DNA of 62,753 nt from positions 1 through 62,753 of the forward strand of contig JAFXZJ010000004.1 in the NCBI GenBank assembly GCA_017541305.1, in the 5' to 3' direction. The translations under genes and the position numbers were made by a program. Source of the DNA: Clostridia bacterium (lineage in GTDB: Bacteria > Bacillota > Clostridia > Christensenellales > CAG-138). Below the pieces are notes generated by a model, which was not told the origin of the DNA, searched no databases, and saw only the letters and a program-made list of their open reading frames with translations. Shown here piece after piece: positions 1 to 58,169 of the stretch; within the stretch, counting starts at the first letter, position 1; the number at the start of each line of letters is the position of its first letter.

Positions 1-657
<657 letters not shown>

Positions 658-679
658 TTCGATAAAAGCAAACATAACG

Positions 680-709
680 GAGAGGGGTTCGCCCCTCTCT
701 GTTTTTTTT
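680..709 (+). terminator. Rho-independent terminator of tuf
   Basis: An 8-bp stem (GAGAGGGG/CCCCTCTC) with a TTCG loop is followed by a run of seven T. It lies 22 bases after the tuf stop. Confidence 0.93.
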
Positions 710-787
710 ACCGCGAAACTTTATATATTAAATTGCGGCAAACTTGGCTTATTCAATAAATATATGAGAAAAAACCGAAAAAAAGGC

Positions 788-815
788 TTGTATTTTCTGG
801 ATTTTATGCTACAAT
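788..815 (+). promoter_or_regulatory. Promoter of the HU gene
   Basis: TTGTAT and TACAAT hexamers are separated by 16 bp. The predicted start of transcription is about 50 bases upstream of the HU start codon. Confidence 0.6.
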
Positions 816-873
816 AGCCATTGTGCCGCAAAACGCGGCGATCCAATTCAATTATTTTTCGGAGGAATATAAA

Positions 874-1152
874 ATGAATAAGGCTCAGCTTATCAACGCC
901 GTAGCAGCAAAGTGCAATCTTCCCAAGAAGGATATCGATGCAGTCGTCAACACCACCTTTGACTGCATCATCGAGAGCCTCAAGGAAGGCGAGAAAGTCC
1001 AGATCGTCGGTTTCGGTCATTTCGAAGTTCGCGAGCGTCCCGCAAGGCCCGGCCGCAACCCCATGACCGGCGAACCCATCGAGATCGAAGCCAGCCGTTC
1101 CGCTGCCTTCAAGGCGGGCAATGCGCTCAAGGAAGCCCTCGAGAACAAATAA
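874..1152 (+). CDS. hup: HU-family nucleoid DNA-binding protein
   Basis: A 92-residue histone-like protein that bends and compacts DNA as a dimer. The sequence shows the whole HU fold: an N-terminal helical part (MNKAQLINAVAAKC), the signature GFGHFEVRERPARPGRNPMTGEP of the DNA-binding arm (residues about 46-68), and the C-terminal helix with FKAGNALKEAL. The ATG at 874 was chosen because GGAGGA precedes it and it matches the family start; a frame continuing upstream to 823 starts inside the promoter region. The gene is monocistronic and, like tuf, uses high-expression codons. Confidence 0.96.
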   Translation: MNKAQLINAVAAKCNLPKKDIDAVVNTTFDCIIESLKEGEKVQIVGFGHFEVRERPARPGRNPMTGEPIEIEASRSAAFKAGNALKEALENK

Positions 1153-1195
1153 GCTAACCTGCCCCCGCTTTTACACAAAATTTACATTGGGGGTA

Positions 1196-1223
1196 TTGAT
1201 TTTTCCAACGCATGTATTATAAT
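1196..1223 (+). promoter_or_regulatory. Promoter of the ferredoxin gene
   Basis: TTGATT, 16-bp spacer, TATAAT; the transcript would start about 28 bases before the ferredoxin ATG. Confidence 0.7.
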
Positions 1224-1257
1224 GATAATACAGAATACGACAACGGAGGTATTTTCC

Positions 1258-1428
1258 ATGGCTTACAAAATCACTGATGCTTGCATCGCATGCGGCGCTT
1301 GCGCAGCAGAATGTCCCGTTGGCGCTATCACCGAGGGTGATGGCAAGTTCGAGATCAATCCCGACCTCTGTGTAGAGTGCGGCGCCTGTGCCGGCACCTG
1401 CCCCGTCGGTGCTCCCGAGCAGGAGTAA
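1258..1428 (+). CDS. 2[4Fe-4S] ferredoxin
   Basis: A 56-residue clostridial-type ferredoxin, a soluble low-potential electron carrier for fermentative oxidoreductases. Two CxxCxxCxxxCP motifs are complete: CIACGACAAECP (residues 9-20) and CVECGACAGTCP (residues 38-49). The ATG at 1258 has ACGGAGGT 8 bases upstream. The gene has its own promoter and terminator. It is the likely general ferredoxin of the cell, and could serve flavin/iron-sulfur dehydrogenases such as the one at 46.8-50.1 kb (inference). Confidence 0.96.
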   Translation: MAYKITDACIACGACAAECPVGAITEGDGKFEINPDLCVECGACAGTCPVGAPEQE

Positions 1429-1451
1429 TTTCTTGATCAAAAACAAAACAA

Positions 1452-1482
1452 ATCGGCATCCCGAAAGGGGTGCCGATTTTTG
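1452..1482. terminator. Bidirectional terminator between ferredoxin and mazG
   Basis: Stem AATCGGCA-TCCC / GGGG-TGCCGATT with a GAAA loop and T5 on the plus side; on the minus side a T-rich stretch follows as well. The two flanking genes converge here. Confidence 0.85.
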
Positions 1483-1494
1483 TATCGCGGGCAT

Positions 1495-2994
1495 TTATTC
1501 ATTCAAAAGCGCTTTGGCCTTTTCCCAGTATTCGTCCATTTCGGGCAGGGTCATATCCTCAAAGCTTTTCCCGTCCTCCAGTATCAGCTTTTCGGTCAGC
1601 TTGAAGCGGCGCTCGAACTTGTCCGTCGCAACGGTCAGCGCAAGGTCGGGATCGACCTTTTTCAGCCTTGCCACGTTCACGGCGGCAAAGAACAGATCGC
1701 CCACCTCGTCCTCGATGCGCGCCTTGTCGCCCAAGGCGATGGCCTCCATCACCTCGTCGGCCTCCTCGTGCACCTTGGGCATGGCCTCCTCGGCGGAAGA
1801 CCAGTCAAAGCCCACGTCCGCGGCCTTTTTCTGTATCTTATAGGCCCTCAGCAGCGAGGGGAAGGACTTGGGCACCGAATCCATGGCGGAGGCGACGCTT
1901 TTCTGATGCTTTTCCTCCTTCTTCAGCTTTTCCCAGTTGACGAGCACCTCGTCCGAATTATCCACGTGCACGCTGCCGAACACGTGCGGATGGCGGAATA
2001 TCATCTTGTTCGTTATGCCGGTCGCCACGTCGCGCAGGGTGAACGACGAATGCTCCTCCTCGATCACCACGTGGAAGGCTATCTGCAGCAGCAGGTCGCC
2101 CAGCTCCTCGCAAAGATCGTCGGGATCGTTCCTGTCGATCGCGTCGATCACCTCCCAGCATTCCTCAAGCAGGCTCTTTTTAAGACTTTCGTGCGTCTGC
2201 TCGGCGTCCCAGGGACAGCCTCCGGGAGCCCTCAGGCGCCGCATCATCTGCATAAGCCCCTCCACGGAGTGGCGGGGAAGCTCCAGATCCTTCATGGGCG
2301 GAACGAGCAGCACCGCCGCGGCGTCGTAGCGCTCCATGCGGTCAAGCTCGAACAGCTTGCGGGTCTTTATCTCGTAACAGCTCCCGTCGGTCGCGGGAAC
2401 GGCAAAATAGACCTGATACTCGTCGGGATAGTATTCCGACAGCGTAAGCTTCACTTCGGATGCGGTGAGCGGAGAATCGATCTCGGTTATCGCGTAAAGC
2501 GCTTCGGTATCGGAAACGCGCTCCAAACGGTTGGCGGGCATCTCGGTCAAAAGCTCGTGCCCGTCCAAATGCCCATATGAGAGCGCGGCGGAATAGGCGG
2601 ATTCTGCAAAGCTCACCGTGGGCAGCACCTCAAGATTCACCTTGCCCACGTCGCCCATATGGCGTATCAGCTCGAGCACGGCGGGATTGACGCGACCGAG
2701 GGTGATATAAACGACGTGCTTTTTGCCGCTCGATCCGGTCATACCGCAATAGCCCTCGGAGGAGATGAACTCCGCCGCTTCCACGAGCCTGCCCGCAATG
2801 GCGCGGTTGAGCTCGTCGAAATCCTCGGCGTCGGCATAAAGATCGTCCATGGAGGTGAAGCTGCCGGTCAGGCCAAGCTTTTTTATAAAGGGATGCTCAA
2901 GGGTCTGCACGAAGCGGGCCTCGGCGCCGTCGAACAGGCATTTCGCGCCGCCGATCCCCTCGGCCCCGGCCTGGATTATGTAAATATCTGTCAT
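1495..2994 (-). CDS. mazG: Tetrapyrrole methylase domain-MazG nucleotide pyrophosphohydrolase fusion
   Basis: A 499-residue two-part protein like Bacillus YabN. The N-terminal ~220 residues are a SAM-dependent tetrapyrrole methylase-like domain whose substrate is unknown; the C-terminal part is MazG, which hydrolyses (d)NTPs to monophosphates and cleans non-canonical nucleotides. Two MazG repeats are visible: APGGCPWDAEQTHESL then EECWE and EELGD (about 255-300), and a second EEADE/DEVGD pair (about 410-430). The start has AAGGAG 8 bases upstream. It lies downstream of asparaginase on the same strand, separated by a 120-base spacer holding inverted repeats. Confidence 0.93.
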   Translation of the reverse strand: MTDIYIIQAGAEGIGGAKCLFDGAEARFVQTLEHPFIKKLGLTGSFTSMDDLYADAEDFDELNRAIAGRLVEAAEFISSEGYCGMTGSSGKKHVVYITLGRVNPAVLELIRHMGDVGKVNLEVLPTVSFAESAYSAALSYGHLDGHELLTEMPANRLERVSDTEALYAITEIDSPLTASEVKLTLSEYYPDEYQVYFAVPATDGSCYEIKTRKLFELDRMERYDAAAVLLVPPMKDLELPRHSVEGLMQMMRRLRAPGGCPWDAEQTHESLKKSLLEECWEVIDAIDRNDPDDLCEELGDLLLQIAFHVVIEEEHSSFTLRDVATGITNKMIFRHPHVFGSVHVDNSDEVLVNWEKLKKEEKHQKSVASAMDSVPKSFPSLLRAYKIQKKAADVGFDWSSAEEAMPKVHEEADEVMEAIALGDKARIEDEVGDLFFAAVNVARLKKVDPDLALTVATDKFERRFKLTEKLILEDGKSFEDMTLPEMDEYWEKAKALLNE

Positions 2995-3022
2995 TGTATG
3001 TCTCCTTGCCTGCTTACCCGGC

Positions 3023-3092
3023 GGGGACGGTTCCGGATGGCCGGTGAATTATTATGCGAAAGTATCCGAACTAACCGATCAGAACCGTCCCC
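3023..3092. repeat. 11-bp inverted repeat, REP-like, between ansA and mazG
   Basis: GGGGACGGTTC (3023-3033) and its exact complement GAACCGTCCCC (3082-3092) are separated by 48 bases. Nested next to it are ACTAACC/GGTTAGT (3070-3076, 3096-3102) and TAGTTTG/CAAACTA (3099-3105, 3111-3117), the last overlapping the asparaginase stop. The GGGACGGTTC core resembles palindromic repeats seen in many copies in some Firmicutes genomes (recollection, not checked). Confidence 0.6.
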
Positions 3093-3114
3093 ATTGGTTA
3101 GTTTGTTTTTCAAA

Positions 3115-4107
3115 CTACTCCGAAAGCTCTCCCGCGATATCGGTGCCCATTATGCGTCGGACAGATTCGATATCGTGCGCGCGGCCCAGCACCCACATTA
3201 GCTTTGTGATGGCGGCCTCGGTGGTCATATCCCGCGCGGAGATCACGCCCACGTCCTTGAGCGAACGGCTGACCTCGTAAACGTCGGGGGTGGACTGCTC
3301 GTAAAGGCACTGGCTGGTAAGCACCACGGGTATGCCCGCGGCCATCAGCTGCTTTATGGACTCGGTGTGGTCGCGGCGGAAATTATGCATGCCGCCCAGG
3401 CCGAAGCCCTCCACAACGACGCCCTTCATGTCGATATCCTTCAGGCAGTCCAGCATCTGCGGGCTCATGCCGGGGACTATCTTGACGAGCGCCACGCGCG
3501 GATCCAGCGAGGACGAAAAGCTGAAGCCCATCGTGGGCTTGGGGGTGTGCAGCAGCACGCATTTGCCGTCGCTGATGGTGGCGATATAGGGATAGTTGAT
3601 GGATTCAAACGCGTTCAGGCTGGTCGTCCTGGTCTTGACCGCGCGGCAGCCGAGTATGACCGAGCCGCCGAAGCAGATATAGACGCCCCCGGGAAGGCTG
3701 GTTGCGGCGTTGACCGCGTCGGCCAGATTGCGCCTGCCGTCGGAATTGGGATAGACGGCGGGGTACTGCGCGCCCGTAAGCACCACGGGAACGGGTATCC
3801 CGCGCAGTATGAACGACAGCATCGAGGCGGTATAGGCCATCGTGTCGGTGCCGTGGGTGAGCACGATACCGTCGCAGGAGCCGACCTTGTCGCGTATGGC
3901 CTCGGCGATTATGCACCATTCCTCGGGCTGGATATTGGATGAATCCATGCTGAAAAGATCGGTGCAGCTGATCTCCACTCCGTCCGTTTCGCACCCGACG
4001 AGCTTTACAAGATCCCGCCCGGTGAGCTCGGGGGAGAGGCCGTTTTCGGTGGGCACACAGGCGATGGTGCCGCCCGTGGCGATTAGGCAGATTCTTTTCT
4101 TATTCAT
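3115..4107 (-). CDS. ansA: L-asparaginase, type I-like
   Basis: Hydrolyses L-asparagine to aspartate and ammonia. The 330-residue protein has both active-site blocks: ATGGTIA with nucleophile Thr14, and LTHGTDTMAYTA (residues 83-94) with the second Thr, Asp and the conserved His. No signal peptide is present, so it should be cytoplasmic. The ATG at 4107 matches the family start. Its ribosome-binding site GGAGG lies unusually far away (about 28 bases); a hairpin fills the gap (see that entry). It has its own promoter and may also carry mazG. Confidence 0.94.
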   Translation of the reverse strand: MNKKRICLIATGGTIACVPTENGLSPELTGRDLVKLVGCETDGVEISCTDLFSMDSSNIQPEEWCIIAEAIRDKVGSCDGIVLTHGTDTMAYTASMLSFILRGIPVPVVLTGAQYPAVYPNSDGRRNLADAVNAATSLPGGVYICFGGSVILGCRAVKTRTTSLNAFESINYPYIATISDGKCVLLHTPKPTMGFSFSSSLDPRVALVKIVPGMSPQMLDCLKDIDMKGVVVEGFGLGGMHNFRRDHTESIKQLMAAGIPVVLTSQCLYEQSTPDVYEVSRSLKDVGVISARDMTTEAAITKLMWVLGRAHDIESVRRIMGTDIAGELSE

Positions 4108-4116
4108 AATGGCGTT

Positions 4117-4132
4117 GCTTTGCGGGCAAAGC
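4117..4132 (-). promoter_or_regulatory. Hairpin between ribosome-binding site and start of ansA
   Basis: A perfect GCTTTGC/GCAAAGC dyad (closing to a 6-bp stem with a 4-base loop) sits between GGAGG (4136-4140, minus strand) and the ATG at 4107. If folded it would bring the two to a normal distance; if not, initiation would be poor. Confidence 0.5.
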
Positions 4133-4175
4133 TTTCCTCCCTTTTACTCGATAGAGGACATAAATCCACAAACTA

Positions 4176-4204
4176 ATTATAATTGTTTTGCGGACGCTTG
4201 GCAA
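4176..4204 (-). promoter_or_regulatory. Promoter of ansA
   Basis: On the minus strand TTGCCA (4199-4204), 17-bp spacer, TATAAT (4176-4181). Confidence 0.75.
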
Positions 4205-4226
4205 GCCTTATTTTGAAATGAATATA

Positions 4227-4255
4227 TTGAATCGCGCGTTTCACGGGTGTATAAT
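4227..4255 (+). promoter_or_regulatory. Promoter of the lipoprotein gene at 4317
   Basis: TTGAAT, 17-bp spacer, TATAAT, divergent from the ansA promoter. Confidence 0.75.
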
Positions 4256-4316
4256 GGGAACCGAAACGGGGGCAAATGCGTTTTATAGATACAGAACCCC
4301 GAAAGGAGAAGACGAT

Positions 4317-4916
4317 ATGAAAAGGATCACAGCGATCATGATGGCTCTTTTGAACCTGTGCTTTGTTTTTGCGGCTTGCGGTACGAGCGTTCCCGAAGGC
4401 AGCGCGGCCAAGCCCACCAAGGCGCCCCTGCCCGAAGGCTTCCATGCCGAGCCCGCGACCTATCCGCCCGATTTCTTCACAACAGCCGTTCCCGAGGATA
4501 TCCCCAAGGACGCGCTGCTCTTTGCCGAAAGCTTCTCTCACGGAGGCGGCGGCTCGGTGGAAAAGACGACGTGGAGGGTCTATGAGGATCTCGATTCCTT
4601 CCGCACGGATTATCCCGAGGCTCCTCAACAGCTTCAGGAGCTCAAGGCCGAGGATTTCGATTCGATGGTGCTTTTGGCGATCTCCGACGTGGTGCGCTCC
4701 GGCGGCTTCACGTTCGGGCTGGCCTCGCTCGATATAAGCGAAGGCGTTATTTACGTCGACTGCAAAAAGGAGGGCCCGCCCAAGGGTACTATGGTGACCA
4801 TGGCGTTCCAGACCAACACCCTTATACTGGGCATTGCGAAGTCCGCGGTGGAGCCAGTCATTAGCTCCGTGGTGACGGTGAACGGTATGCAGGTAGAGGG
4901 GCAGGCTGTCAAATAA
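4317..4916 (+). CDS. Lipoprotein with PrcB_C-like domain
   Basis: 199 residues. The N-terminus is a lipoprotein signal (MKRITAIMMALLNLCFVFAAC, lipobox ending at Cys20/21), followed by a short Pro-rich linker. The C-terminal ~80 residues (VRSGGFTFGL, then a beta strand, then a T/N-rich strand NTLILGIAKS) resemble the PrcB C-terminal domain found in proteins that bind surface proteases; this assignment is by pattern only. ATG 4317 is chosen for its RBS AAAGGAGAAG and for starting the signal peptide. Single gene, divergent from ansA; function unknown. Confidence 0.8.
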   Translation: MKRITAIMMALLNLCFVFAACGTSVPEGSAAKPTKAPLPEGFHAEPATYPPDFFTTAVPEDIPKDALLFAESFSHGGGGSVEKTTWRVYEDLDSFRTDYPEAPQQLQELKAEDFDSMVLLAISDVVRSGGFTFGLASLDISEGVIYVDCKKEGPPKGTMVTMAFQTNTLILGIAKSAVEPVISSVVTVNGMQVEGQAVK

Positions 4917-4963
4917 TTTCGCAGCGCCGTCACAATTTTTACAGGAACTTTACATGAAACCAC

Positions 4964-4992
4964 TTGAAAAGCACAAAACACTGTGATATAAT
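4964..4992 (+). promoter_or_regulatory. Promoter of hpf
   Basis: TTGAAA, 17-bp spacer, TATAAT. The ~80-base leader that follows carries a stable ACGGCGGT/ACCGCCGT hairpin at 5010-5030 that is not followed by T residues. Confidence 0.85.
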
Positions 4993-5079
4993 ATATCCAC
5001 AAATGAAAAACGGCGGTTCAATACCGCCGTGATTCCTAATAAAGCGCATAAAAAGCGCTAAGGAAAGGAGCAACAAACC

Positions 5080-5604
5080 ATGCGTATTTCCATTAACGGC
5101 AAGAACATCGAAGTATCCGAGTATCTGAGGGACCTTGCGCTGAAAAAGATGGCGAAGCTTGAACGTTATTTCCCCGCAGATACGCCCGCACAGGTGACCA
5201 TGGCGGTTGAAAAGAACCGTCATATCGTTGAGGTCACGATCCCCTATGGCGGCGGTATCATCCGCGGCGAGGAGGTCACCGGGGATATGTACGCCAGCAT
5301 CGACAACGTCATCGCAAAGCTGGAGCGTCAGATCATCCGCCACCGCACCAAGCTTGAGAAGAACCTCAAGGCGGAGGCGTTCAACGAGCCCGTTCCCGAA
5401 TACGTCGAGGAGGACGAGGAAGAGGGTCCCAGGATCGTAAGGAACAAGCGCTTCTCGATCAAGCCCATGAGCATCGACGAAGCCGTCCTGCAGATGGATC
5501 TCTTAGGCCACTCCTTCTTCGTATTCACCAATTCCGAAACGGAGGATATCAACGTCCTTTACAAGAGGAAGGATGGAAATCTGGGCCTTATAGAACCCGA
5601 ATAA
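5080..5604 (+). CDS. hpf: Long-form ribosome hibernation promoting factor
   Basis: 174 residues: an N-terminal RaiA/YfiA domain (about 1-100, starting MRISINGKNIEVSEYLRD and including the basic helix with RHRTKLEKNLK) joined by an acidic linker (EYVEEDEEEGP) to the C-terminal dimerisation domain (about 118-174, IVRNKRFSIKPMSIDEAV...FFVFTNSET). The long form dimerises 70S into inactive 100S ribosomes in stationary phase. GGAAAGGAG lies 11 bases before the ATG. Monocistronic, own promoter and terminator. Confidence 0.96.
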   Translation: MRISINGKNIEVSEYLRDLALKKMAKLERYFPADTPAQVTMAVEKNRHIVEVTIPYGGGIIRGEEVTGDMYASIDNVIAKLERQIIRHRTKLEKNLKAEAFNEPVPEYVEEDEEEGPRIVRNKRFSIKPMSIDEAVLQMDLLGHSFFVFTNSETEDINVLYKRKDGNLGLIEPE

Positions 5605-5622
5605 AATTCACATGCTTTCAGG

Positions 5623-5646
5623 ATCCCCGCAGCCGCGGGGATTTTT
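5623..5646 (+). terminator. Terminator of hpf
   Basis: ATCCCCGC-AGCC-GCGGGGAT followed by TTTT. Confidence 0.88.
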
Positions 5647-5777
5647 GATTGCCCGAATATCGTGAGCTTCGGGACGGGAAACGAGAAGGACGCTTGAAGC
5701 ATCGCGCCTCTCACGGTAAACCGATCATCGGCATTGCGTGCAGCCGAAAAGCCCGGTAAGATCCGAATTCTTTATAG

Positions 5778-5806
5778 TTGACAAGCAGACAAATTTGTGA
5801 TATTAT
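5778..5806 (+). promoter_or_regulatory. Promoter of the secreted-protein operon at 5897
   Basis: Consensus TTGACA, 17-bp spacer, TATTAT. Nothing else was recognised in the gap 5647-5777. Confidence 0.85.
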
Positions 5807-5896
5807 ATTAATTGGATAGGGGGATTTATGTCGTGCCTGCCTCGATGGGCGGGTTCTCAGCAGAAATCCATGTATAGAACAGAAAGGAGAAAAAAC

Positions 5897-6364
5897 ATGA
5901 AGAAAAGACTGCTGTCAATTGTTATTTCTGTCGTTTTAGCCTCCGTGCTTTTAACGACAGCGCTTGCCGATCCCACTATTGTCACCGTCCAAAGGCAGTA
6001 CATAGGAGGCTATTCGACCTTGATCGTAAGCTCCTTTTACAGCGGCTACCTTGAAAAGCAAGCGACCTATCAGTGGATCAGCGTTAAGGACGATAATACG
6101 GAAACGTATTACGTAGACGAGACGACCGGGTACCAGTACAGTGGAATGCATAGAACCTGGGTCTATGATTCGGGCAATAATCATACTGTTGCTTATAGGG
6201 AAGTAGCTCATCAAGGCGATGGGAGTTTTACGTATTCGGAGCTCGCTAACGTGAGGACTGCGCCCACAATCAGACTGAAAATCGGAAAGAATCCTACTGA
6301 AACAAGAAAGTTTCAGACCAAGGGGCAGTTCATTGCAGACTACGGCCTTTATCGAGGTGAATAA
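5897..6364 (+). CDS. Secreted protein of unknown function
   Basis: 155 residues with a classical signal peptide (KKRLLSIVISVVLASVLLTTALA, probable cleavage after ALA at about residue 24) and a mature part rich in Tyr, Thr and Ser with repeated aromatic strands (YQWISVKDDNTETYYVD), suggesting a small beta fold. No family recognised. The ATG at 5897 follows AGAAAGGAG; an upstream in-frame ATG at 5828 would add a non-signal extension. It is separated by two bases from the next lipoprotein gene, so the two are surely co-transcribed. Confidence 0.8.
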   Translation: MKKRLLSIVISVVLASVLLTTALADPTIVTVQRQYIGGYSTLIVSSFYSGYLEKQATYQWISVKDDNTETYYVDETTGYQYSGMHRTWVYDSGNNHTVAYREVAHQGDGSFTYSELANVRTAPTIRLKIGKNPTETRKFQTKGQFIADYGLYRGE

Positions 6365-6366
6365 AC

Positions 6367-7821
6367 ATGAAAACGACGTTTACGATGCGTGCTTGTGCAT
6401 TGCTTTTTGCGCTAATTCTCGCATCGGCGTCGTTCCTTTCCGCCTGCCAACCGACCCCCGAGGTCGAGCCTGTGCCCAACAAGGGCGATAATATAGCAGG
6501 TCAAAAGATAGAAGCATCCGCGGTCCCGGCCGCGGATACTTCTTCTCCGGAAGGGAGCGCGACGCAGGCTCCGCCCGTTTTCCCCGAGCATTGGTATGAG
6601 GATATAAGGTCCTCCACGGGGAGGATGTTAGTGGACGCCGATGTGGTCACGACCGGGCAGACGACCTTCCCGGTTTACAGCATAAAGCGGGCGGTAATCG
6701 ATCAGGAGCTGCTGCAGCCCATGCTCGATTATTTCTTTCCCAAAATAAAGGCGTGGAAATACGGATCTTTTCTTGGCGTTGAGGACTATGAGGAGCAGCT
6801 CGAGCGCATCCCGGAAGCGATGGCTGCGCTCGGTCTCCCGCCCGAGAGCGAGCAGTGGCTTGCAGAGTCGCAGATGAGGTTTATAAATAATAACCTTAAC
6901 CGCTGCAGCAAATCCGACGCGGATTTTATTCCGGCGGAGCGGATCGATCTTTCAAAAACGACTGTGCAGACGGTCATGCTCGAGGACGGCCGCAAGGGCT
7001 TGATCGACTGCTACGGTGGTGATTTTATTGAGATCTGCGCCCATATAGATTCCTATGTTCAAAGGTCAATGTTTGCCGCGTGGGATTGGTGGAACGCATA
7101 CTATATGGCTGAGGAGGATTTTGAGTATCCTATAACCGATGAAGAAGCCAAGGTGTGGCTGCAGCCCGAGATCACGCTTGAGGAAGCAATGGCCGGCGCG
7201 GAGGATTTCTTTGAAAAAACCGGGCTTGAAGGATATGAGCTTTCATGGTCGGAAGCCGCTCAGCTTGAGGAGTCCGCTACCTGGCACTCGTGGAGCACCG
7301 GCTGGCTGCTTGAGTTTGTCAGGACGTTCTCCTACTATCCGATCGATGCGTCAAGAAATGATGCGGGAAAATCCGGTAAAACGTTTGTACAGAATCCGGA
7401 TGATTACAGTCCGGGCTGGCCATGCGAGGTGATCGAGCTTTACGTCAGCAAAAACGGAGTGGAAAACTTCAGATGGAAGTATCCGGTCGAGATCGTGGAG
7501 CTGGTAAACGAAAACGTTGAGCTCATGCCGTTTGACGAGCTTACCGCTTCGATGAAAAGGGTCCTTCTCGCCGCAATAAGCTATTCCGAGCTTCACAAAA
7601 TGTGGCATAAGATAGACCGCGTGATACTCACTGTCGCGCCGCAGCGAAAGAAGGACTCCAATGAAGCATACCTAATGCCGATATGGCTTTGCATGGGATA
7701 TACCTATATGGAAGATAAACCGGATTCCACACTGAGTGGAGATTGGCATGACACGAAATGGTATATGGCTTTTAACGCGATAGACGGAACGAGGGTGTAT
7801 CTGTCGCCCCCGGGGATCTAA
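6367..7821 (+). CDS. Lipoprotein, probable DUF6034 family
   Basis: 484 residues beginning with a lipoprotein signal (ALLFALILASASFLSAC, Cys27) and a disordered linker to about residue 75. The body starts with PEHWYEDIRSSTGRMLVDADV and ends with a strand pattern VILTVAPQR...YLMPIWLCMGY; this pattern is what I remember of DUF6034 lipoproteins of gut Clostridia, but it was not searched. Likely anchored on the outer face of the membrane. Second gene of a two-gene operon with the small secreted protein; the pair may act together. Function unknown. Confidence 0.75.
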   Translation: MKTTFTMRACALLFALILASASFLSACQPTPEVEPVPNKGDNIAGQKIEASAVPAADTSSPEGSATQAPPVFPEHWYEDIRSSTGRMLVDADVVTTGQTTFPVYSIKRAVIDQELLQPMLDYFFPKIKAWKYGSFLGVEDYEEQLERIPEAMAALGLPPESEQWLAESQMRFINNNLNRCSKSDADFIPAERIDLSKTTVQTVMLEDGRKGLIDCYGGDFIEICAHIDSYVQRSMFAAWDWWNAYYMAEEDFEYPITDEEAKVWLQPEITLEEAMAGAEDFFEKTGLEGYELSWSEAAQLEESATWHSWSTGWLLEFVRTFSYYPIDASRNDAGKSGKTFVQNPDDYSPGWPCEVIELYVSKNGVENFRWKYPVEIVELVNENVELMPFDELTASMKRVLLAAISYSELHKMWHKIDRVILTVAPQRKKDSNEAYLMPIWLCMGYTYMEDKPDSTLSGDWHDTKWYMAFNAIDGTRVYLSPPGI

Positions 7822-7893
7822 TACAGCGGCTTGAGTGACAACGCCTCGGCTCCCGGGAGACCCTGCTCCGAAAGCATTTATACAAAAAATACC

Positions 7894-7936
7894 GAAAAAA
7901 ATCCCCGAAAGGGCCGATACGGCCTGTTTCGGGGAT
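7894..7936 (-). terminator. Terminator of addA
   Basis: Read on the minus strand: ATCCCCGAAA...TTTCGGGGAT with an inner GGCC/GGCC pairing, followed by seven T. It may also slow plus-strand transcripts from the lipoprotein operon. Confidence 0.85.
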
Positions 7937-7964
7937 ATCTTTATTGAGAAGGGAAAGCGGCGAT

Positions 7965-10900
7965 CTATAAGCGCACCGCTTCGTTCACCGAGAGCAGATA
8001 CACCCAGCTTTCCTTCACGGGGGTACCGGTAAGCTTTTCAAGCGCAAGGGAGTAAAGCTCAAGCTGGCGGCGGTAGCGCTCGGCAACGCTGCGCGGGGTG
8101 TGAGCCTTATCCACGCGCGTGGTCTTGTGGTCGATCAGCACCCATGCGCCGTCCTCCATAAAGCAGCAGTCTATCACGCCCTGCAGCATTATGGCCGCTT
8201 CGGAGGCCGAATCGGTAAGTGCGCGGGCCGGCATGCGCAGATTGAATTCGCGCTCCCTGAGCACCCTTGGGGAGGCGATAAGCCTGCGTCCCAGATCGGA
8301 GGCGAAGAAATCGACTATCGACGTGATGCTGACGGCCCCGGCCTCACGCCCGGTGAAAACGCCCGCCGCGGTCAGCGCCGAAAGCTCGCGCCCGGCGCTC
8401 TCCTTGGTGTGCGGAGCGATGGGTATCAGCTGCAGCAGCCGGTGAGTGAGCGTGCCTACCTCGGCGGGGGTGAATTCGCGCTCGGCCTCCATAAAGCGCG
8501 GGCGCAGGGATACCTCGGGTATCCGCACGGTCAGCCCCGTGACCGAAAGCTTGGATGGAAGCTTTGCTTCCTCGGAATAAGGATAGGCCGATTCAAAGCG
8601 CGAAGCAGCGTAACCGGGGTCGATAAAGGCGGCGTCCTGCAGCCACGCGGCAAATTCATCCTCGCTCATGCCTATGCGCGCGGCGCCCGCGGCGTCGGTT
8701 CCGATGATATTCAGCGGCATTTCGCCCGACGGCAGGCGCAGGGGGATATCCGCGCCCTGCGGGAAATAAGCGCCAAGCATCCAGTCGGCATAGCTCGACG
8801 CGTTCATCACGCGCACGCCGTCCATGGGACGCGCAAAGCGCGCGGCAAAGCGCGGGGCGTTTCGCTTAACGCCCACCATGATCAGCTTTTCACGCGCGCG
8901 GGTCTGCGCCACGTACAGCATGCGCATCTCCTCGGAGTTCTGGCGGCGAAGCTCGCGGAAGGCGATGGCCCTTTGCAGCAGGGATTTTTCGCCGCGGTCG
9001 CCCGAAACGGAGCACAGGCCGATCCCCAGACGCGAATCGAATATGCCCACGGCGGAATTGGAACTGCGGTTGAAGCCCTTTGTGATATCGCCAAGTATCA
9101 CCACGGGGAATTCAAGGCCCTTGCTGTGATGTATCGTCATAAGGCGCACCGCGTCGATATTGGGCGAAACGGACGCGCCGGCGGGAGCGGAATCGCGCGA
9201 ATCGTCGAGAAAGCGTATGAAGCCCGAAAGCGTGGCCTTGCCCGTGTTCGCATAGCGCAAGGCGATATCGCAGAGCGAAGCCAGGTTGCGGGCGCGCGCC
9301 TCGCCTCCGAACAGCGCGGAAACCCGTGCCATAAGGCCCGTTTCGTCAAGCACCGCGCCCATAAGCTCGGTAAGCCCGTAAAGGCGCAGCTTTTCGCGCC
9401 ACGAGGATATGACGCCGAGCATTCGCCCGGCCTTCACGCTCCACGATGGCGCGCTTCGGTCGGCGGCGGCGGCAAGCACGCGGTCAAGCACGTCTTCGCC
9501 CTCGTAATCGGCCTTGATATGTATCAGCTCGTCGTCGGTGAAGCCGAAAACGCTCGAACGCATCACGGCAAGCAGGGGGATATCCTGCCTGCGGTTGTCG
9601 ATCACGCGAAGCAGATCGATAAACAGCCGCACCTCCAGCGCGTCGAAGAAGCCGGGGCCGCTGTCGCACACGCAGGGGATGCCCGCGTCGGCAAGCGTGC
9701 GCAGCCATTCGGAGGCGACGGGGGCAACCGACCGCAAAAGCACCGTGAAATCCGAGAAGCGGTATCTGCGCGGCACGCCGTTTTCATAAAGCTGTTCGCC
9801 CGACATTATCTCAAGTATCCGCCGCGCGGCGAATGCGGCCTGTAGGGCGGCATTGGTCTGATCCTCGTCGTCATCCTCGTCATCGTCGTCATAGGGGAAG
9901 CGCCTTTTGTCGGGCGGCTCGGGGTCTATAAGCGTCAGCTCCACCGTGCCCCTTGGCGCACCCTCCACGGCGGCAAAGCCCGAAACGAGCGAGGCGTTGT
10001 CGGAATAATCTATCTCGCCCACCGAGCCGCCGCGCATCAGCTTTGAAAACAGCGCGTTCGCCGCCTCGAGTATAATGGGGCGGCTTCGGAAATTGGCGTT
10101 AAGGTCGATGCGGAACCTTCCGTCCTCGCCCTTATAGGTGTTGTATTTTTCAAGGAATATCGCGGGCTCGGCCTGGCGGAAGCGGTAAATGGACTGCTTG
10201 ACGTCGCCCACCATGAAGCGGTTGGAGCTTGAAACGGCGGAAAGTATCGCTTCCTGCGCGGGGTTGATATCCTGATATTCGTCCACGAAAACGGCCTTGA
10301 AGCGCCTGCGGTATTCGTCCGCTATGCGCTCGTTTCGCAGTATGCGAAGCGTCAGCTGCTCCATATCGTTAAAGTCGATCAGCCCCTCCTCCTGCTTGAA
10401 CGCGGCAAAGCGTTCGGTAAAGCGCCCCACAAGCGCGCGCAGCGTGATTATGGGCGGCGCGAGCAGGCGTGAGAATCCCTCCTCCTCGGCAAGGGTATGC
10501 GCAAAGCGCTTTTTAAGGTCGCCGTGATATTTTTTAAGCCTTTCGCGGTATTCCTTGACCTCGGCCTTTTCGCCCTCGTCCGTGCCGGAATTCCAGGTAA
10601 GGCGCGAGAACGTGTGCGAGCCTATCGAGGCGACCCATTTGTCGTGATCGCGGCCCAGCATCAGGCCCAGCATAAAGCTCATATCGTCGTCGAGCGCCGA
10701 TGCGATCCTGGGATGATCGGAGGCGGGGCCCTCCCTCAGGCCCTTTGCCGCGTCCATGAACACCTGCAGCTCGCCCGTCACCCGGTCCATCAGCTCGTCA
10801 TCCGACGCCGCGGCGGCCGCGGCAAAGCCGGTAGTGTATTTTTCCGCCGCCCCGTCAAGCCAGGCCTCGGGATCGGGCTGCGCCTGGGCAAAACGATAAA

Positions 10901-11441
10901 GCGAGCGCATCAGCTCCTCAAGCCGCCTGTCACTGCCAACGGCGTTAAGCAGCGCGTTGAAGCCGGGATCCTTATGCTTTTCGTTTTCGGCATACTGCTC
11001 CTCAAGCACCTCGTCCAGGGCCTTTTTTGCAAGCAGCTCGCTTTCAAGCTCCTCCGCCACGCGGAACGCGGGATCGAGCCCCACCTCGTGATAATTGCGG
11101 TGGAGCACGTTGGTGCAAAAGCTGTGTATCGTGGATATGTTCGCGCTCTCGCAGGCGGCCGCGGCGCGGCGCAGCAAGGCGGCCCTTTCGGGATCGCCGG
11201 AATCGAGCACTTCGTCGGACAGGGCGGATAAGCGCTTGCCTATCCTCTCCTTCATTTCGGCGGCGGCGGCGCGGGTGAAGGTCACCACAAGCAGCTCGTC
11301 AACGCCCATGCCGCCGGCTATGAGCCGCGCTATGCGCTCGGTCAAAACTGCGGTCTTGCCCGCTCCCGCCGCGGCGGAAACGAGCAGGTCGCCCTGCTTT
11401 TGTATGGCTTCAAGCTGTTTTTCGGTCCAGACGCGGCTCAT
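7965..11441 (-). CDS. addA: AddA helicase-nuclease subunit
   Basis: 1158 residues, the ATP-dependent helicase/nuclease subunit of the AddAB double-strand-break resection enzyme. Visible parts: Q-motif WTEKQLEAI and Walker A SAAAGAGKT (22-30), the UvrD-type FVDEYQDINPAQ Walker B region, FRSRP and QTRAREKL helicase motifs, and a C-terminal RecB-type nuclease with GVIDCCF...WVLIDHKTTR containing the Asp/Asp/Lys catalytic set. Length is normal for AddA. Odd: no addB is next to it; upstream is the divergent lspA and downstream a convergent lipoprotein operon, so the partner must lie elsewhere or be missing. Confidence 0.95.
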   Translation of the reverse strand: MSRVWTEKQLEAIQKQGDLLVSAAAGAGKTAVLTERIARLIAGGMGVDELLVVTFTRAAAAEMKERIGKRLSALSDEVLDSGDPERAALLRRAAAACESANISTIHSFCTNVLHRNYHEVGLDPAFRVAEELESELLAKKALDEVLEEQYAENEKHKDPGFNALLNAVGSDRRLEELMRSLYRFAQAQPDPEAWLDGAAEKYTTGFAAAAAASDDELMDRVTGELQVFMDAAKGLREGPASDHPRIASALDDDMSFMLGLMLGRDHDKWVASIGSHTFSRLTWNSGTDEGEKAEVKEYRERLKKYHGDLKKRFAHTLAEEEGFSRLLAPPIITLRALVGRFTERFAAFKQEEGLIDFNDMEQLTLRILRNERIADEYRRRFKAVFVDEYQDINPAQEAILSAVSSSNRFMVGDVKQSIYRFRQAEPAIFLEKYNTYKGEDGRFRIDLNANFRSRPIILEAANALFSKLMRGGSVGEIDYSDNASLVSGFAAVEGAPRGTVELTLIDPEPPDKRRFPYDDDDEDDDEDQTNAALQAAFAARRILEIMSGEQLYENGVPRRYRFSDFTVLLRSVAPVASEWLRTLADAGIPCVCDSGPGFFDALEVRLFIDLLRVIDNRRQDIPLLAVMRSSVFGFTDDELIHIKADYEGEDVLDRVLAAAADRSAPSWSVKAGRMLGVISSWREKLRLYGLTELMGAVLDETGLMARVSALFGGEARARNLASLCDIALRYANTGKATLSGFIRFLDDSRDSAPAGASVSPNIDAVRLMTIHHSKGLEFPVVILGDITKGFNRSSNSAVGIFDSRLGIGLCSVSGDRGEKSLLQRAIAFRELRRQNSEEMRMLYVAQTRAREKLIMVGVKRNAPRFAARFARPMDGVRVMNASSYADWMLGAYFPQGADIPLRLPSGEMPLNIIGTDAAGAARIGMSEDEFAAWLQDAAFIDPGYAASRFESAYPYSEEAKLPSKLSVTGLTVRIPEVSLRPRFMEAEREFTPAEVGTLTHRLLQLIPIAPHTKESAGRELSALTAAGVFTGREAGAVSITSIVDFFASDLGRRLIASPRVLREREFNLRMPARALTDSASEAAIMLQGVIDCCFMEDGAWVLIDHKTTRVDKAHTPRSVAERYRRQLELYSLALEKLTGTPVKESWVYLLSVNEAVRL

Positions 11442-13483: not shown

Positions 13484-13546
13484 CAAAGCAAACGGGAATC
13501 CGCGGGGAACGGGTTTTATGCGTATATGATGCTTAAAAGAAGCGCG

Positions 13547-43509: not shown

Positions 43510-44106
43510 TCAGTCGGCTTTGGAGTCATCCCCGGGCTCATGGCAGCGCCCGTGCTTATGGCAGCATTCGTGCCCGGCGCGCTCCTCGTGGAGCTTTTCG
43601 CGCCAGGAGCCGCGAAGCTTCTCAAGCAGAACGATCAGCTCGTCCTTCTCTTTATCGCTCAGCGCGGAAAAGAGATCGGGCTTTTCGCGCTTGCCCTCGG
43701 AAAGCGCGGCCCTGCCGGCCTCGGTCAGGCGCACGTCGGCCGTGCGGCGGTCCTCGGCGCTCTCGGTGCGGGCGATCAGCCCCGCGCGCTCCAGCTTGCC
43801 CATCAGCTCGCTTGCCGAACCGGGACGCACGCCCAGCCTTTCGGTCAGCGCGCGCTGGGTCATATCGCCCTCCTGCGCAAGTATGCACAGTATCCTGTGC
43901 TGACCGCCGCGGCTCTCAAAGAAGAAACGGCTCATGTGATGAAGCTCGTGCATCAGCACGCCCAGCTTCTCATCCGCGTCCATTGCAAGATATTTCGCCT
44001 CCCATTCGGCGCGGTCGAACCTCCCGCGGGGACCCCGGCAGCCGTGACGCCCGTGCCTTGCGCACCCGTTGTTTTCATTGTACGTCTCATTGTTCCTGTT
44101 GCACAT
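43510..44106 (-). CDS. MarR-family regulator with His/Cys-rich ends
   Basis: 198 residues. Winged helix region: LCILAQEGDMTQRALTERLG then GSASELMGKLERAGLI and the wing ESAEDRRTADVRLTEAG. The N-terminus (CARHGRHGCRGPRG) and C-terminus (ECCHKHGRCHEP) are rich in His and Cys, suggesting metal or redox sensing. ATG 44106 follows AAAGGAGTG; the frame from 44163 overlaps the promoter. Two matching palindromes flank its promoter, so it represses itself. No divergent target gene is next to it. Confidence 0.9.
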   Translation of the reverse strand: MCNRNNETYNENNGCARHGRHGCRGPRGRFDRAEWEAKYLAMDADEKLGVLMHELHHMSRFFFESRGGQHRILCILAQEGDMTQRALTERLGVRPGSASELMGKLERAGLIARTESAEDRRTADVRLTEAGRAALSEGKREKPDLFSALSDKEKDELIVLLEKLRGSWREKLHEERAGHECCHKHGRCHEPGDDSKAD

Positions 44107-54646: not shown

Positions 54647-54695
54647 TTGACGAACGGGATAAACCGTGCTATTATAGTTAGCGGCGGCTAACTAT
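54647..54695 (+). promoter_or_regulatory. HMA gene promoter with 9-bp palindromic operator
   Basis: TTGACG (54647-54652), 17-bp spacer, TATTAT (54670-54675). ATAGTTAGC-GGCG-GCTAACTAT (54674-54695) overlaps the -10 end and the start of transcription. The same AGTTAGC-N4-GCTAACT sits over the divergent-strand promoter near 56.0 kb. Confidence 0.88.
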
Positions 54696-54737
54696 CTGCC
54701 GTCCATCTTTTGAATAACAGCAACGGAGGAAACGTTC

Positions 54738-54986
54738 ATGGAAAAGGTAACCGTCAGGATCGACGGCATGATGTGCGGCATGTGCGAGGCGCATATCGCG
54801 GACACGATACGCGCCGCGTTCCCGGACGCGAAAAAGGTAAAGGCTTCAAGGGCGCACGGGGAAGCGACTTTCATTACCGAAAGCGGCGTTGACGAAGCAA
54901 GGCTGAAAAAGGCCGTGGACGACACGGGCTATACTTTCGTTTCGGTATCGTCGGAGCCTTACAAAAAGCGCGGGCTGTTCGGATAA
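54738..54986 (+). CDS. HMA-domain metal-binding protein
   Basis: 82 residues, a single heavy-metal-associated domain: metal site GMMCGMCEAHI (CxxC, Cys13 and Cys16 region), ferredoxin-like beta-alpha-beta order, and a C-terminal YTFVSVSSEPYKK. Such proteins carry copper or another soft metal to P-type ATPases or sensors. RBS ACGGAGGAAA. Single gene under the palindrome-controlled promoter shared with the DUF2325/DUF3793 operon; no P-type ATPase is in the window. Confidence 0.9.
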   Translation: MEKVTVRIDGMMCGMCEAHIADTIRAAFPDAKKVKASRAHGEATFITESGVDEARLKKAVDDTGYTFVSVSSEPYKKRGLFG

Positions 54987-55003
54987 TAAAAAGGCCCCGG
55001 CGC

Positions 55004-55558
55004 TCAGGCCGTTTTGACCGTGAGCTTGCTTAAAGGATAACCCTCGCGAAGCTTCATGCAATACACCTCGGTGCATTTTTTGAATCTGGCAAACGTCTTT
55101 TCGGCCTCGCTGCCGTTGGTATAGGCGCGCCAGCAGCCCACGCACCGGCATTCCCTGTTCCTGTCGCACATGAAGCAGCGGACGTCCTCGGGAGGATAGC
55201 CGAGAAAAAGTCCTATCTCGTGAGGAAAATCCGCCGAGCCGCCCAGGCGGGCCATAAGCTCCCTGATAAGCCGGGCAGCCGTTCCCTCGTCATATCCGCA
55301 CGAGGAGAGGATCGCCTCGGATGCGGGGCTTTTCAGATCGTCCTCGAGCTTCTTCGGACGGTAAACGTAAATAAGCGCGCTCCCGTTCGCCAGGCGAAGC
55401 GGTATCATGCGCACGCCCTTGCCCTTGAGCATATTGTTGACGGAGCGGATGCTTTTCATAAGCTCCGCTTTATCCGTGTATTTGCAGTTGAACATATTCG
55501 CCGTCTTGAGCCCCGCAAGCGTGGGCGAGCAGTGACGGACTATCAGGGCTTCGGACAT
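55004..55558 (-). CDS. DUF3793 family protein
   Basis: 184 residues. Recognised by SEALIVRHCSPTLAGLKTANMF at the start, IRSVNNMLKGKGVRMIPLR and DFPHEIGLFLGYPPEDVRCF; a Cys cluster (CDRNRECRCVGCWR, about 134-147) follows. DUF3793 genes in Clostridia often sit with iron-transport and flavodoxin genes (recollection). Its ATG overlaps the stop of the 40-residue gene (TAATG). Last gene of the palindrome-controlled operon. Confidence 0.88.
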   Translation of the reverse strand: MSEALIVRHCSPTLAGLKTANMFNCKYTDKAELMKSIRSVNNMLKGKGVRMIPLRLANGSALIYVYRPKKLEDDLKSPASEAILSSCGYDEGTAARLIRELMARLGGSADFPHEIGLFLGYPPEDVRCFMCDRNRECRCVGCWRAYTNGSEAEKTFARFKKCTEVYCMKLREGYPLSKLTVKTA

Positions 55559-55680
55559 TATCGTTCTCCTTTCCCGGCATCTTTATCGATATTTGCGATA
55601 TAGCTTTTGCATGCGTGCTTAACGCCCTCGGAAAGGGCGATAAAACCCGCGACGATGCCCGCGGCAAAAATGAATCCCAT
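55558..55680 (-). CDS. 40-residue membrane-helix microprotein
   Basis: Strong RBS AAGGAGG lies 5 bases upstream of the ATG at 55680. One hydrophobic helix (GFIFAAGIVAGFIALSEG, about 2-19) is followed by a basic/acidic tail with a single Cys (HACKSYIANIDKD). Its stop shares a base with the DUF3793 ATG and it starts 15 bases after DUF2325, so coupling is clear. Position recalls the small FeoB-associated membrane proteins of iron operons, but its Cys content is low. Function unknown. Confidence 0.75.
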   Translation of the reverse strand: MGFIFAAGIVAGFIALSEGVKHACKSYIANIDKDAGKGER

Positions 55681-55695
55681 ACAGGCCTCCTTTTG

Positions 55696-55965
55696 TCAAA
55701 CCGCGTGCTCGCTGAGTATCGAGCGAAGCGCGGCGATCGAGCTTGAATGCGATCTTGCGATGCGCGCTTCGTTCCCCTTGAGCGCACATTGAACCATCTT
55801 GTGCGATACGGTGCTTGTGAACAGCACCACGAGGTCGGGGCTTCCAAGGTCCTTCAAGCCCGTCGTCATCCTGGGATAGACCTTGGCCTTGCAGCCGTAT
55901 TCACGGCAAAGCTCCTTGTACTGCCTTGTCATGCATTCGTTCCCGCCGACTATTACCACGCTCAT
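55696..55965 (-). CDS. DUF2325 protein
   Basis: 89 residues, Rossmann-like small domain: SVVIVGGNECMTRQYKELCREYG and DLVVLFTSTVSHKMVQCA with the conserved HKM/Cys pattern of DUF2325. Family role unknown; often found with metal or redox stress genes. First gene of the three-gene operon. No strong RBS is evident (GGTAACCGAGATG). Confidence 0.88.
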   Translation of the reverse strand: MSVVIVGGNECMTRQYKELCREYGCKAKVYPRMTTGLKDLGSPDLVVLFTSTVSHKMVQCALKGNEARIARSHSSSIAALRSILSEHAV

Positions 55966-55998
55966 CTCGGTTACCTCAATTCCTACCGGTTTGCTTTG

Positions 55999-56051
55999 AG
56001 TTAGCAGCCGCTAACTGAATGTATTATAACAAAGAGAGCCGTGCTTGTCAA
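55999..56051 (-). promoter_or_regulatory. Promoter and palindromic operator of the DUF2325 operon
   Basis: Minus strand TTGACA (56046-56051), 17-bp spacer, TATAAT (56023-56028); directly downstream is AGTTAGC-AGCC-GCTAACT (55999-56016), the same dyad as at the HMA promoter with only the 4-base centre changed. Confidence 0.9.
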
Positions 56052-56562: not shown

Positions 56563-56575
56563 AGAGGTGATCAAC

Positions 56576-57349
56576 GTGACACAGGCGGAAAAGAGACTTT
56601 ATCTGATACGCGCCCTGCTGAATGAGCAGCCGCGTTATTCCGGGATAGGGATACCGACGGACGAGGGGGAGCAGAAGGAGCTTCTGCGCGCTCTGATGAA
56701 CGTGCGCATGCCCGCGCCGATAACGGAGGAGTATCTGCGGATCGAAAGCGAATATTTAAAGGCCGAGACCGAAGCGAAGGGCATAACGAGGCTGGGCGAT
56801 TTTTCACCGGTCGAGCCGCATATCTATCTTTGGCAGGGCGATATCACAACGCTTTCCTGCGGCGCCGTCGTAAACGCCGCGAACTCACAGCTTTTGGGCT
56901 GCTTCCGGCCCCTGCATAACTGCATCGACAACTGCATCCACAGTGCGGCGGGGCTTGAGCTTCGAAACGCCTGCGCGCAGCTCATGGAGAAGCAGGGATA
57001 TGAGGAGCCGACGGGCCGTGCCAAGCTTACGCCCGGCTTCAATCTGCCCGCGAATTACGTCCTGCACACCGTTGGCCCCATAGTGGAGGGCGGGCTTACA
57101 AAAAGGCACGAAGCCGAGCTTGCCTCGTGCTATCGCTCCTGCCTGGATCTGGCGGCGGAAAACGGCATAAGCTCAGTCGCGTTCTGCTGCATCTCGACCG
57201 GAGTATTCGGCTTCCCTCAGGAGCGCGCGGCGGAGATCGCCGTTGAAACGGTGCGCGAATATTTAAATGAAACCAATTCGGATACAGAGGTGATATTCAA
57301 TGTCTTCACAGATCGGGATCGTGAACTCTACCGGGAGTTACTCGGATAA
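56576..57349 (+). CDS. Zinc-containing macrodomain ADP-ribose hydrolase
   Basis: 257 residues. Macrodomain with GDITTLSCGAVVNAANSQLLG, then the zinc-type loop GCFRPLHNCIDN (Cys109, His114, Cys116) and the phosphate loop CISTGVFGFPQERAAEIA. This sub-type removes ADP-ribose placed by class M sirtuins. GTG 56576 is preferred to GTG 56567, which lies inside the RBS AGAGGTGA. The next gene starts 50 bases before its end, in another frame, an overlap that fixes the pair. Confidence 0.9.
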   Translation: MTQAEKRLYLIRALLNEQPRYSGIGIPTDEGEQKELLRALMNVRMPAPITEEYLRIESEYLKAETEAKGITRLGDFSPVEPHIYLWQGDITTLSCGAVVNAANSQLLGCFRPLHNCIDNCIHSAAGLELRNACAQLMEKQGYEEPTGRAKLTPGFNLPANYVLHTVGPIVEGGLTKRHEAELASCYRSCLDLAAENGISSVAFCCISTGVFGFPQERAAEIAVETVREYLNETNSDTEVIFNVFTDRDRELYRELLG

Positions 57350-58169
57350 TATCGAAAGGCTCAAAAAGGCCCTTGCCGGGGCGGATAAGGTTGTGATCGG
57401 CGCGGGCGCGGGGCTTTCGACCTCGGCGGGCTTCGTCTATTCGGGCGAACGGTTCGAGCGCTTCTTCTCGGATTTCGGCAGGCGTTACGGCTTTTCCGAT
57501 ATGTATTCGGGCGGGTTCTATCCCTACAAGACGCCCGAGGAGTTCTGGGCCTACTGGTCGCGTTACGTATTCGTCAACCGCTATATGGACGCTCCCAAGC
57601 CGGTGTACGAGGAGCTTCTTGCGCTCGTCCGCGGCAGGGATTATTTCGTCATAACGACCAACGTCGATCACTGCTTCCAAAGGGCGGGCTTCGATAAGAA
57701 GCGCCTCTTTTACACGCAGGGCGACTACGGGCTTTTCCAGTGCTCCGTGCCCTGCCACAGCAAGACCTATGATAACGAGGACGCGATCCGCGCAATGATC
57801 GCCGTGCAGGAGGATATGAGGATCCCCGCTGAGCTCATACCCAAGTGCCCCGTTTGCGGAAAGCCGATGACGATGAACCTGCGCTCCGACGATAAATTCG
57901 TCGAGGACGAGGGCTGGCATGAAGCCTCAAAGCGTTACGCGGATTTCCTCCGCGGCAGAACGGGCAAAACGCTTTTCCTCGAGCTTGGCGTCGGCTGGAA
58001 CACGCCCGGAATAATAAAGGTCCCCTTCTGGCAGATGACCGCCGGGGACGAAAACTCGATCTATGCCTGCGTCAACGTCGGCGAAGCCGTCTGCCCGGAG
58101 GAGATATGCGACCGGGCGATACTGATAGACGGGGATATAGGAAGTGTCATATCCGAACTGAGAGGATAG
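57300..58169 (+). CDS. Class M sirtuin (SirTM), protein ADP-ribosyltransferase
   Basis: 289 residues. Sirtuin Rossmann signature GAGAGLSTSAGF (34-45), TTNVD (119-123), and zinc Cys pairs CSVPC (148-152) and CPVC. The catalytic His of deacetylating sirtuins is replaced by Gln140 in YTQGDYG, as in SirTM, which transfers ADP-ribose from NAD+ to a lipoylated GcvH-like carrier. The usual gcvH-L and lplA2 genes are absent here. RBS AGAGGTGAT. Last gene of the pair. Confidence 0.9.
   Translation: MSSQIGIVNSTGSYSDNIERLKKALAGADKVVIGAGAGLSTSAGFVYSGERFERFFSDFGRRYGFSDMYSGGFYPYKTPEEFWAYWSRYVFVNRYMDAPKPVYEELLALVRGRDYFVITTNVDHCFQRAGFDKKRLFYTQGDYGLFQCSVPCHSKTYDNEDAIRAMIAVQEDMRIPAELIPKCPVCGKPMTMNLRSDDKFVEDEGWHEASKRYADFLRGRTGKTLFLELGVGWNTPGIIKVPFWQMTAGDENSIYACVNVGEAVCPEEICDRAILIDGDIGSVISELRG

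Follow-up and report, generated by a model that had tools for sequence, protein, structure and literature searches.

The window, meaning the whole stretch of DNA analysed here, comprises 62,753 nucleotides of a Clostridia bacterium (CAG-138; assembly GCA_017541305.1, contig JAFXZJ010000004.1, positions 1 to 62,753 of the forward strand). It contains two gene groups on opposite strands. One consists of a gene for a small protein with an HMA domain. The other is an operon encoding a DUF2325 protein, a microprotein, and a DUF3793 protein. Each group is preceded by promoter-like boxes and by an inverted repeat with a four-base centre (Table 1).

Table 1. Genes, promoter-like boxes, and putative operators around the two dyads (positions in the window).
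Feature	Description	Position	Strand	Basis
Putative operator 1	AGTTAGC-GGCG-GCTAACT	54676-54693	.	sequence, shuffles, copies in own genome
Putative operator 2	AGTTAGC-AGCC-GCTAACT, perfect 7-bp arms	55999-56016	.	sequence, shuffles, conservation before DUF2325
Putative HMA promoter	TTGACG 54647-54652, 17-bp spacer, TATTAT 54670-54675	54647..54675	+	by eye, start unmapped
Putative DUF2325 operon promoter	TTGACA 56051-56046, 17-bp spacer, TATAAT 56028-56023	56023..56051	-	by eye, start unmapped
HMA-domain protein	82 aa, MMCGMC motif	54738..54986	+	PF00403 31.7 bits, cut-off 24.8
DUF3793 protein	184 aa	55004..55558	-	PF12672 183.2 bits
Microprotein	40 aa, stop codon overlaps DUF3793 start	55558..55680	-	GIVxGFIALSEGVK core in genus relatives
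DUF2325 protein	89 aa	55696..55965	-	PF10087 92.7 bits

The arms of the first dyad are perfect over 9 bp around GGCG (ATAGTTAGC-GGCG-GCTAACTAT, 54674-54695) and overlap the end of the TATTAT hexamer. The second dyad comes after the TATAAT hexamer on the minus strand. A preliminary description of this DNA had reported a perfect dyad with a four-base centre at the -10 element or start of two opposite promoters. The arms and the promoter-like boxes are indeed seen at both, and the dyads are far above chance. The pattern RTTAG-N6-CTAAY matches twice in the window, against a mean of 0.08 in shuffled sequences, and none of the 100 shuffles had two matches. Searched with three mismatches, the 18-mer is not unusual: it has two matches against a shuffle mean of 1.38, and 42 of the 100 shuffles reach two or more. 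It means that the signal resides in the exact arms.

The structure model of the DUF3793 protein is confident (mean pLDDT 87.4, pTM 0.85), and no convincing relative of known structure came up when PDB sequences were searched with a profile (best E 0.1). The repressor gene had been described as absent from the window. No DtxR-family gene passes the Pfam cut-off within it, and the likely repressor is encoded on another contig, C31. A sub-threshold match to PF01325 (22.2 bits, cut-off 26) falls at 43774-43860 of the minus strand, in an open frame of 218 residues.

Sites elsewhere in the same genome

The assembly has 2.42 Mb in 66 contigs and is 91% complete. The exact 18-mer occurs three times in it, against none for the reversed control, and the core occurs nine times against two. 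Allowing up to two mismatches gave no excess (31 sites against 58 for the control), so this search was dropped and the sites were restricted to at most one mismatch. Seven of the eight one-mismatch sites fall at the regulon places named here.

Sites before feo genes or a DtxR-like gene had been named as something to look for, and the genome scan found both. More precisely, contig C31 carries cores at 12991, 13586, and 13616 and a one-mismatch site at 13519, around a feoA-feoA-feoB cluster. The cluster is divergent from a gene for a DtxR-family protein of 125 aa (C31:13749-14126), here called DtxR1. By eye, one of the putative feo operators occupies the -35/-10 spacer, and the one after it is placed a short way downstream.

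Two other places have paired cores, in both cases 44 bp apart. The pair C17:10925/10969 precedes a long run of genes on the same strand. It consists of a methyltransferase, a membrane protein, two half-ABC transporters, a second HMA gene (C17:5698-5943, 84% identical to the HMA of the window), further methyltransferases, an ATC-hydrolase-family protein, and a second DtxR-family protein (DtxR2, C17:1541-1936). This methyltransferase and ABC transporter run could be an iron-scavenging pathway. The pair C20:12203/12247 precedes related methyltransferase genes (C20:9368-12262, L020). Compared by eye, the promoters of HMA, C17, and C20 are nearly identical from the -35 box through the end of the dyad.

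The putative regulon thus comprises at least five promoters, plus one site between feoA and feoB. One palindrome had been proposed to control two promoters. Both promoters of the window do carry the dyad, but two is too small a number for the regulon.

Two minor observations belong here. The C17 stretch at about 400-10985 (L126, L019) holds several SAM methyltransferases and an LCM-type methyltransferase under the paired operators. At C43:16305 (L022:5306), a LysR gene has a one-mismatch site ahead of it, between the -35 and -10 boxes, and is followed by an alcohol dehydrogenase-like gene (by eye). This site is tentative and may be a chance match, since about five of them are expected by a hand estimate.

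Sites in relatives and their linkage to feo

In the family, GTTAGCN4GCTAAC is found at 142 places in 52 of the 103 genomes, and its reversed pattern at 8 places (column sums). DUF2325 is present in 13 of these genomes. At 14 loci in the 13 genomes, own genome included, 12 show the perfect dyad 33-50 bp before the DUF2325 start. One of the other two has a site with two mismatches and one has no site. Conservation in relatives, which had been put forward as a way to check the description, is therefore found for the DUF2325 site. Where DUF2325 is absent from genomes of the genus, the dyad precedes the microprotein and DUF3793 genes in three and DUF3793 in one more. Likewise, in other genera it stands directly before DUF3793 (e.g. 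L039, L040, L165, L171). The core of the microprotein is kept in three of the five genus genomes examined, also where DUF2325 is missing. In one relative (G082:C58:24905-25171, L114) the DUF2325 frame contains one in-frame TAG, and its upstream dyad is perfect.

We compared 200 dtxR loci. Fifty came from the family (the 30 best matches and 20 hand-picked distant ones) and 70 from the class (the top 30 and 40 picked lower in the ranking), and the remaining 80 were the best matches among 592 named stretches. Of the 96 loci with an adjacent feo gene, 93 have GTTAG-N6-CTAAC no more than 350 bp from dtxR, against 11 of the 104 without one. Removing duplicates (n=197) leaves 90 of 93 and 11 of 104. 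No locus among the 200 has the reversed core near dtxR. Among the 11 loci with a core and without feo, two have DUF3793 or DUF2325-DUF3793 in the place of feo.

Three dtxR loci with adjacent feo are missing the core (L200, L239, L316), and the first two of them have more distant cores. In L079 and L080, whose dtxR genes are close, both feo and a dtxR-adjacent site are absent. Genome G025 has eight exact sites and no DtxR match in a fragmented assembly (88% complete, about 210 contigs).

Some loci join the members of the window directly to feo or dtxR. In L257, the genes feoA-feoA-feoB-DUF2325-DUF3793 follow one another on one strand, apparently as an operon, divergent from dtxR. DUF2325-DUF3793 is divergent from dtxR in L248. 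Anaeromassilibacillus sp. An200 (L270) shows dtxR, DUF3793, HMA, several methyltransferase genes, and five cores in 12.4 kb, and no feo in this stretch.

Two loci labelled as other orders, L206 (Spirochaetales) and L231 (Coriobacteriales), have dtxR genes of the Arg type discussed below, 66% and 63% identical. L206 also has feo and two cores beside dtxR. Either mislabelled bins or transfer would explain them.

The candidate regulator

DtxR1 passes both DtxR domains: the DNA-binding domain PF01325 with 36.4 bits (37.4 in another search; cut-off 26) and the metal-binding and dimerisation domain PF02742 with 55.3 bits (cut-off 27). Its Met9, Cys100, Glu103, and His104 align with Met10, Cys102, Glu105, and His106 of DtxR, that is, with the primary site of the iron type. 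The ancillary-site ligands of DtxR are His79, Glu83, and His98. In DtxR1, the His is kept, and Ser and Ile occupy the places of Glu83 and His98. The protein ends at residue 125, so the C-terminal SH3-like domain is missing.

The preliminary description had noted a likeness to DtxR/IdeR-type boxes, and the TTAG...CTAA half-sites do stand in exact register with them. In the parts of PMC10317159 used here, the IdeR box TTAGGTTAGSCTAACCTAA is bound by two dimers and overlaps the -10 element or the start in repressed genes. In our own reading, each IdeR dimer would cover TTAGG-N4-SCTAA, and TTAGC-N4-GCTAA would be one such site.

The same source describes a contact between IdeR Gln43 and base 1 of every CCTAA repeat. 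DtxR1 has Arg at this place. In Arg-type proteins the sites favour G at base 1 (219 of 296 half-sites; C on the opposite strand). Val goes mainly with A (18/28) and His with T (8/10), and the bases seen with Tyr, Ile, and Thr are mixed. None of 20000 permutations gave a covariation as strong. Nevertheless, the Arg-type proteins form one clade in our tree (few columns, bootstrap unsettled), and IdeR Q43A is described as retaining box binding (PMC8464063, in the part consulted). For these two reasons we set the covariation aside as strong proof and take it as consistent with binding by DtxR1.

Very probably, then, AGTTAGC-N4-GCTAACT is the operator of the short, Fe(II)-activated DtxR1, which would repress feo, HMA, DUF2325-DUF3793, and the methyltransferase operons. 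The computation bears out the sites, their position in promoter-like sequence, their conservation, their linkage to dtxR and feo, the ligand residues, and the missing Fur match in the assembly. That DtxR1 is the protein which binds, that it senses iron, and that it represses are what we infer from these.

Another candidate for binding the dyads is DtxR2, alone or together with DtxR1. It also passes both DtxR domains, its own operon carries paired sites, and in L133 and L282-L285 an HMA operon with GTTAGA-type cores has a DtxR2-like gene as its neighbour. However, the sites linked to feo adjoin DtxR1, and among the matches listed DtxR2 occurs in far fewer genomes than the DtxR1 type. DtxR2 has Asn both at the residue-43 place and at the place of His79. 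We consider a role of DtxR2 at these dyads improbable.

The metal had been left between iron and manganese. DtxR1 resembles MntR in being short, without the SH3 domain, and its best NCBIfam models are those of MntR. A manganese-sensing, MntR-like regulator could then act on the same operator, and for a Porphyromonas relative of DtxR that carries Asp/Cys, the part of PMC4805248 used describes binding of Mn(II) as well as Fe(II). However, DtxR1 misses the cut-offs of these models (82.7 of 153 bits and 53.4 of 138 bits), and it has Met and Cys where MntR has Asp/Asn and Glu. Such sulfur ligands raise the selectivity for Fe(II) (PMC10317159, PMC4805248, both in part). Moreover, feoA and feoB, the uptake genes covered here, are linked to the operator. 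The linkage to feo and the Met/Cys/Glu/His set point to iron, and a manganese sensor appears quite unlikely. Many feo-linked relatives outside the Arg type carry Asp or Asn for Met10 with the same core. It means that the operator is older than this ligand or independent of it. For DtxR1 itself, regulation by iron is the reading that we keep.

A proposed iron-starvation regulon

HMA is matched in 45 of the 103 family genomes, and we compared 30 of its loci. A site within 250 bp before the gene is present in five of the 30 with at most one mismatch and in seven with at most two. Within 1.5 kb of HMA, cores lie upstream in 17 of the 30 loci and downstream in three. We also inspected 23 wider regions, which overlap the 30 loci. 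Sixteen have upstream cores, mostly as pairs 0.7-4 kb away, and one has a downstream core. In many loci HMA sits inside an operon, with the paired sites further upstream. The remaining seven of the 23 wider regions show no upstream core. Two of these seven are accounted for, because our own C17 stretch ended before its known sites and another region had 584 upstream bases. Conservation of the HMA dyad is thus only partial. It is seldom directly before the gene, but upstream cores are found in part of the other loci.

The HMA product had also been taken as a hint of a soft metal. It does resemble domains of copper chaperones, Cu-ATPases, and mercuric proteins, and its operator could then serve a copper-type response. 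However, these NCBIfam matches score far beneath the cut-off, the same operator marks feoAB, and HMA follows feoB in L263 and L183. With the cores, mostly paired, upstream of HMA in most of the wider regions, a soft-metal response is very unlikely and the hint is not borne out. The metal regulon considered probable in the preliminary description is supported and can be narrowed to iron.

Both dyads of the window would fall at or near the RNA start and could act as stem-loops in the transcript leaders instead of as DNA operators, but this reading is scarcely credible. One feo dyad lies between -35 and -10 and would be left out of the RNA made from that promoter, which makes a DNA operator the simplest reading. 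The six central letters vary freely, and the arms match a DtxR dimer site.

Under the proposed control by DtxR1, the Fe(II)-loaded dimer would occupy the dyad at the -10 element or start when iron is sufficient. At feo, it would occupy the -35/-10 spacer and the place just downstream. The bound dimer would block RNA polymerase. When iron becomes scarce, DtxR1 would leave, and feo, HMA, DUF2325-microprotein-DUF3793, and the methyltransferase operons would be transcribed. The genomic place of HMA, DUF2325, DUF3793, and the microprotein suggests that their products handle or spare iron in scarcity.

This is a known kind of regulon. What sets it apart is the variant box, the apparently Fur-less setting, and the new members. 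Compared with DtxR/IdeR of Actinobacteria, as far as the sources used describe it, the repressor family, the iron-type primary site, the register of the half-sites, and the position of the box over the -10 element or start are shared. However, the actinobacterial operator is a 19-bp double box for two dimers, whereas the sites of the window are single TTAGC-N4-GCTAA units. The present system also differs in the G at base 1 that goes with Arg for Gln43, in the missing SH3 domain, in the partial ancillary site, and in giving no Fur match.

Other Clostridia have feo regulons controlled by Fur. They share with the present one that ferrous uptake is raised when iron is scarce, but they differ in that a DtxR-type operator is found here. 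No Fur-family protein (PF01475) was matched in the own assembly, 91% complete, with a control search that was positive in 13 of 14 genomes. Fur was likewise without a match in the 12 other genomes of the genus searched. The following counts for the family come from lists transcribed by hand, uncorrected for kinship, with many incomplete assemblies: Fur exceeds the cut-off in 48 of 103 genomes, namely in 7 of the 48 that have a best DtxR match of 56% identity or more and in 41 of the remaining 55; the exact motif is found in 44 of these 48 against 8 of the 55 others; and Fur is present in 12 of the 52 motif-bearing genomes against 36 of the 51 motif-free ones. Possibly, Fur was replaced by DtxR in these lineages.

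Two other species offer a comparison. Clostridioides difficile induces feo under metal limitation (PMC10174544, in part). Faecalibacterium duncaniae A2-165 has the same feoA-feoA-feoB layout. There, feoA1A2BC is repressed by ferrous sulfate and a second feoAB does not respond to iron, and the main text of PMC10781979 names no DtxR. The iron repression of a cluster with this gene layout lends support to the proposed repression by Fe(II).

Searched by title and start of abstract, the literature on the regulator and operator contained no description of this operator. Searched likewise, the papers on DUF3793 (fungal splicing) and on DUF2325 (Campylobacter and light, filamentous phage, Ensifer, encapsulins) contained none of this regulon.

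The operator very probably also controls the ferrous-iron importer, and genes without an assigned function would in this way become part of how some gut and rumen Clostridia respond to iron starvation. It supplies an iron-regulon operator and a likely regulator for many uncultured members of this group, and it hints at a way in which Fur-less lineages may regulate iron. DUF2325, DUF3793, and the conserved microprotein gain a testable physiological setting. A wider reading is plausible but tentative, and we hold it with less than even confidence. In a large group of Fur-less gut and rumen Clostridia, a short DtxR with Met10 and Arg43 might be the master iron regulator, with a single-dimer box of its own. 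HMA, DUF2325, DUF3793, the microprotein, and the operon of multiple methyltransferases and ABC transporters might then belong to an undescribed pathway that scavenges or spares iron.

Beyond the DUF2325 operon, the window encodes a macro-domain protein (PF01661) and, after it, a protein of 289 aa that matches no Pfam family (56567-58169). The latter presumably resembles a macrodomain-linked sirtuin.
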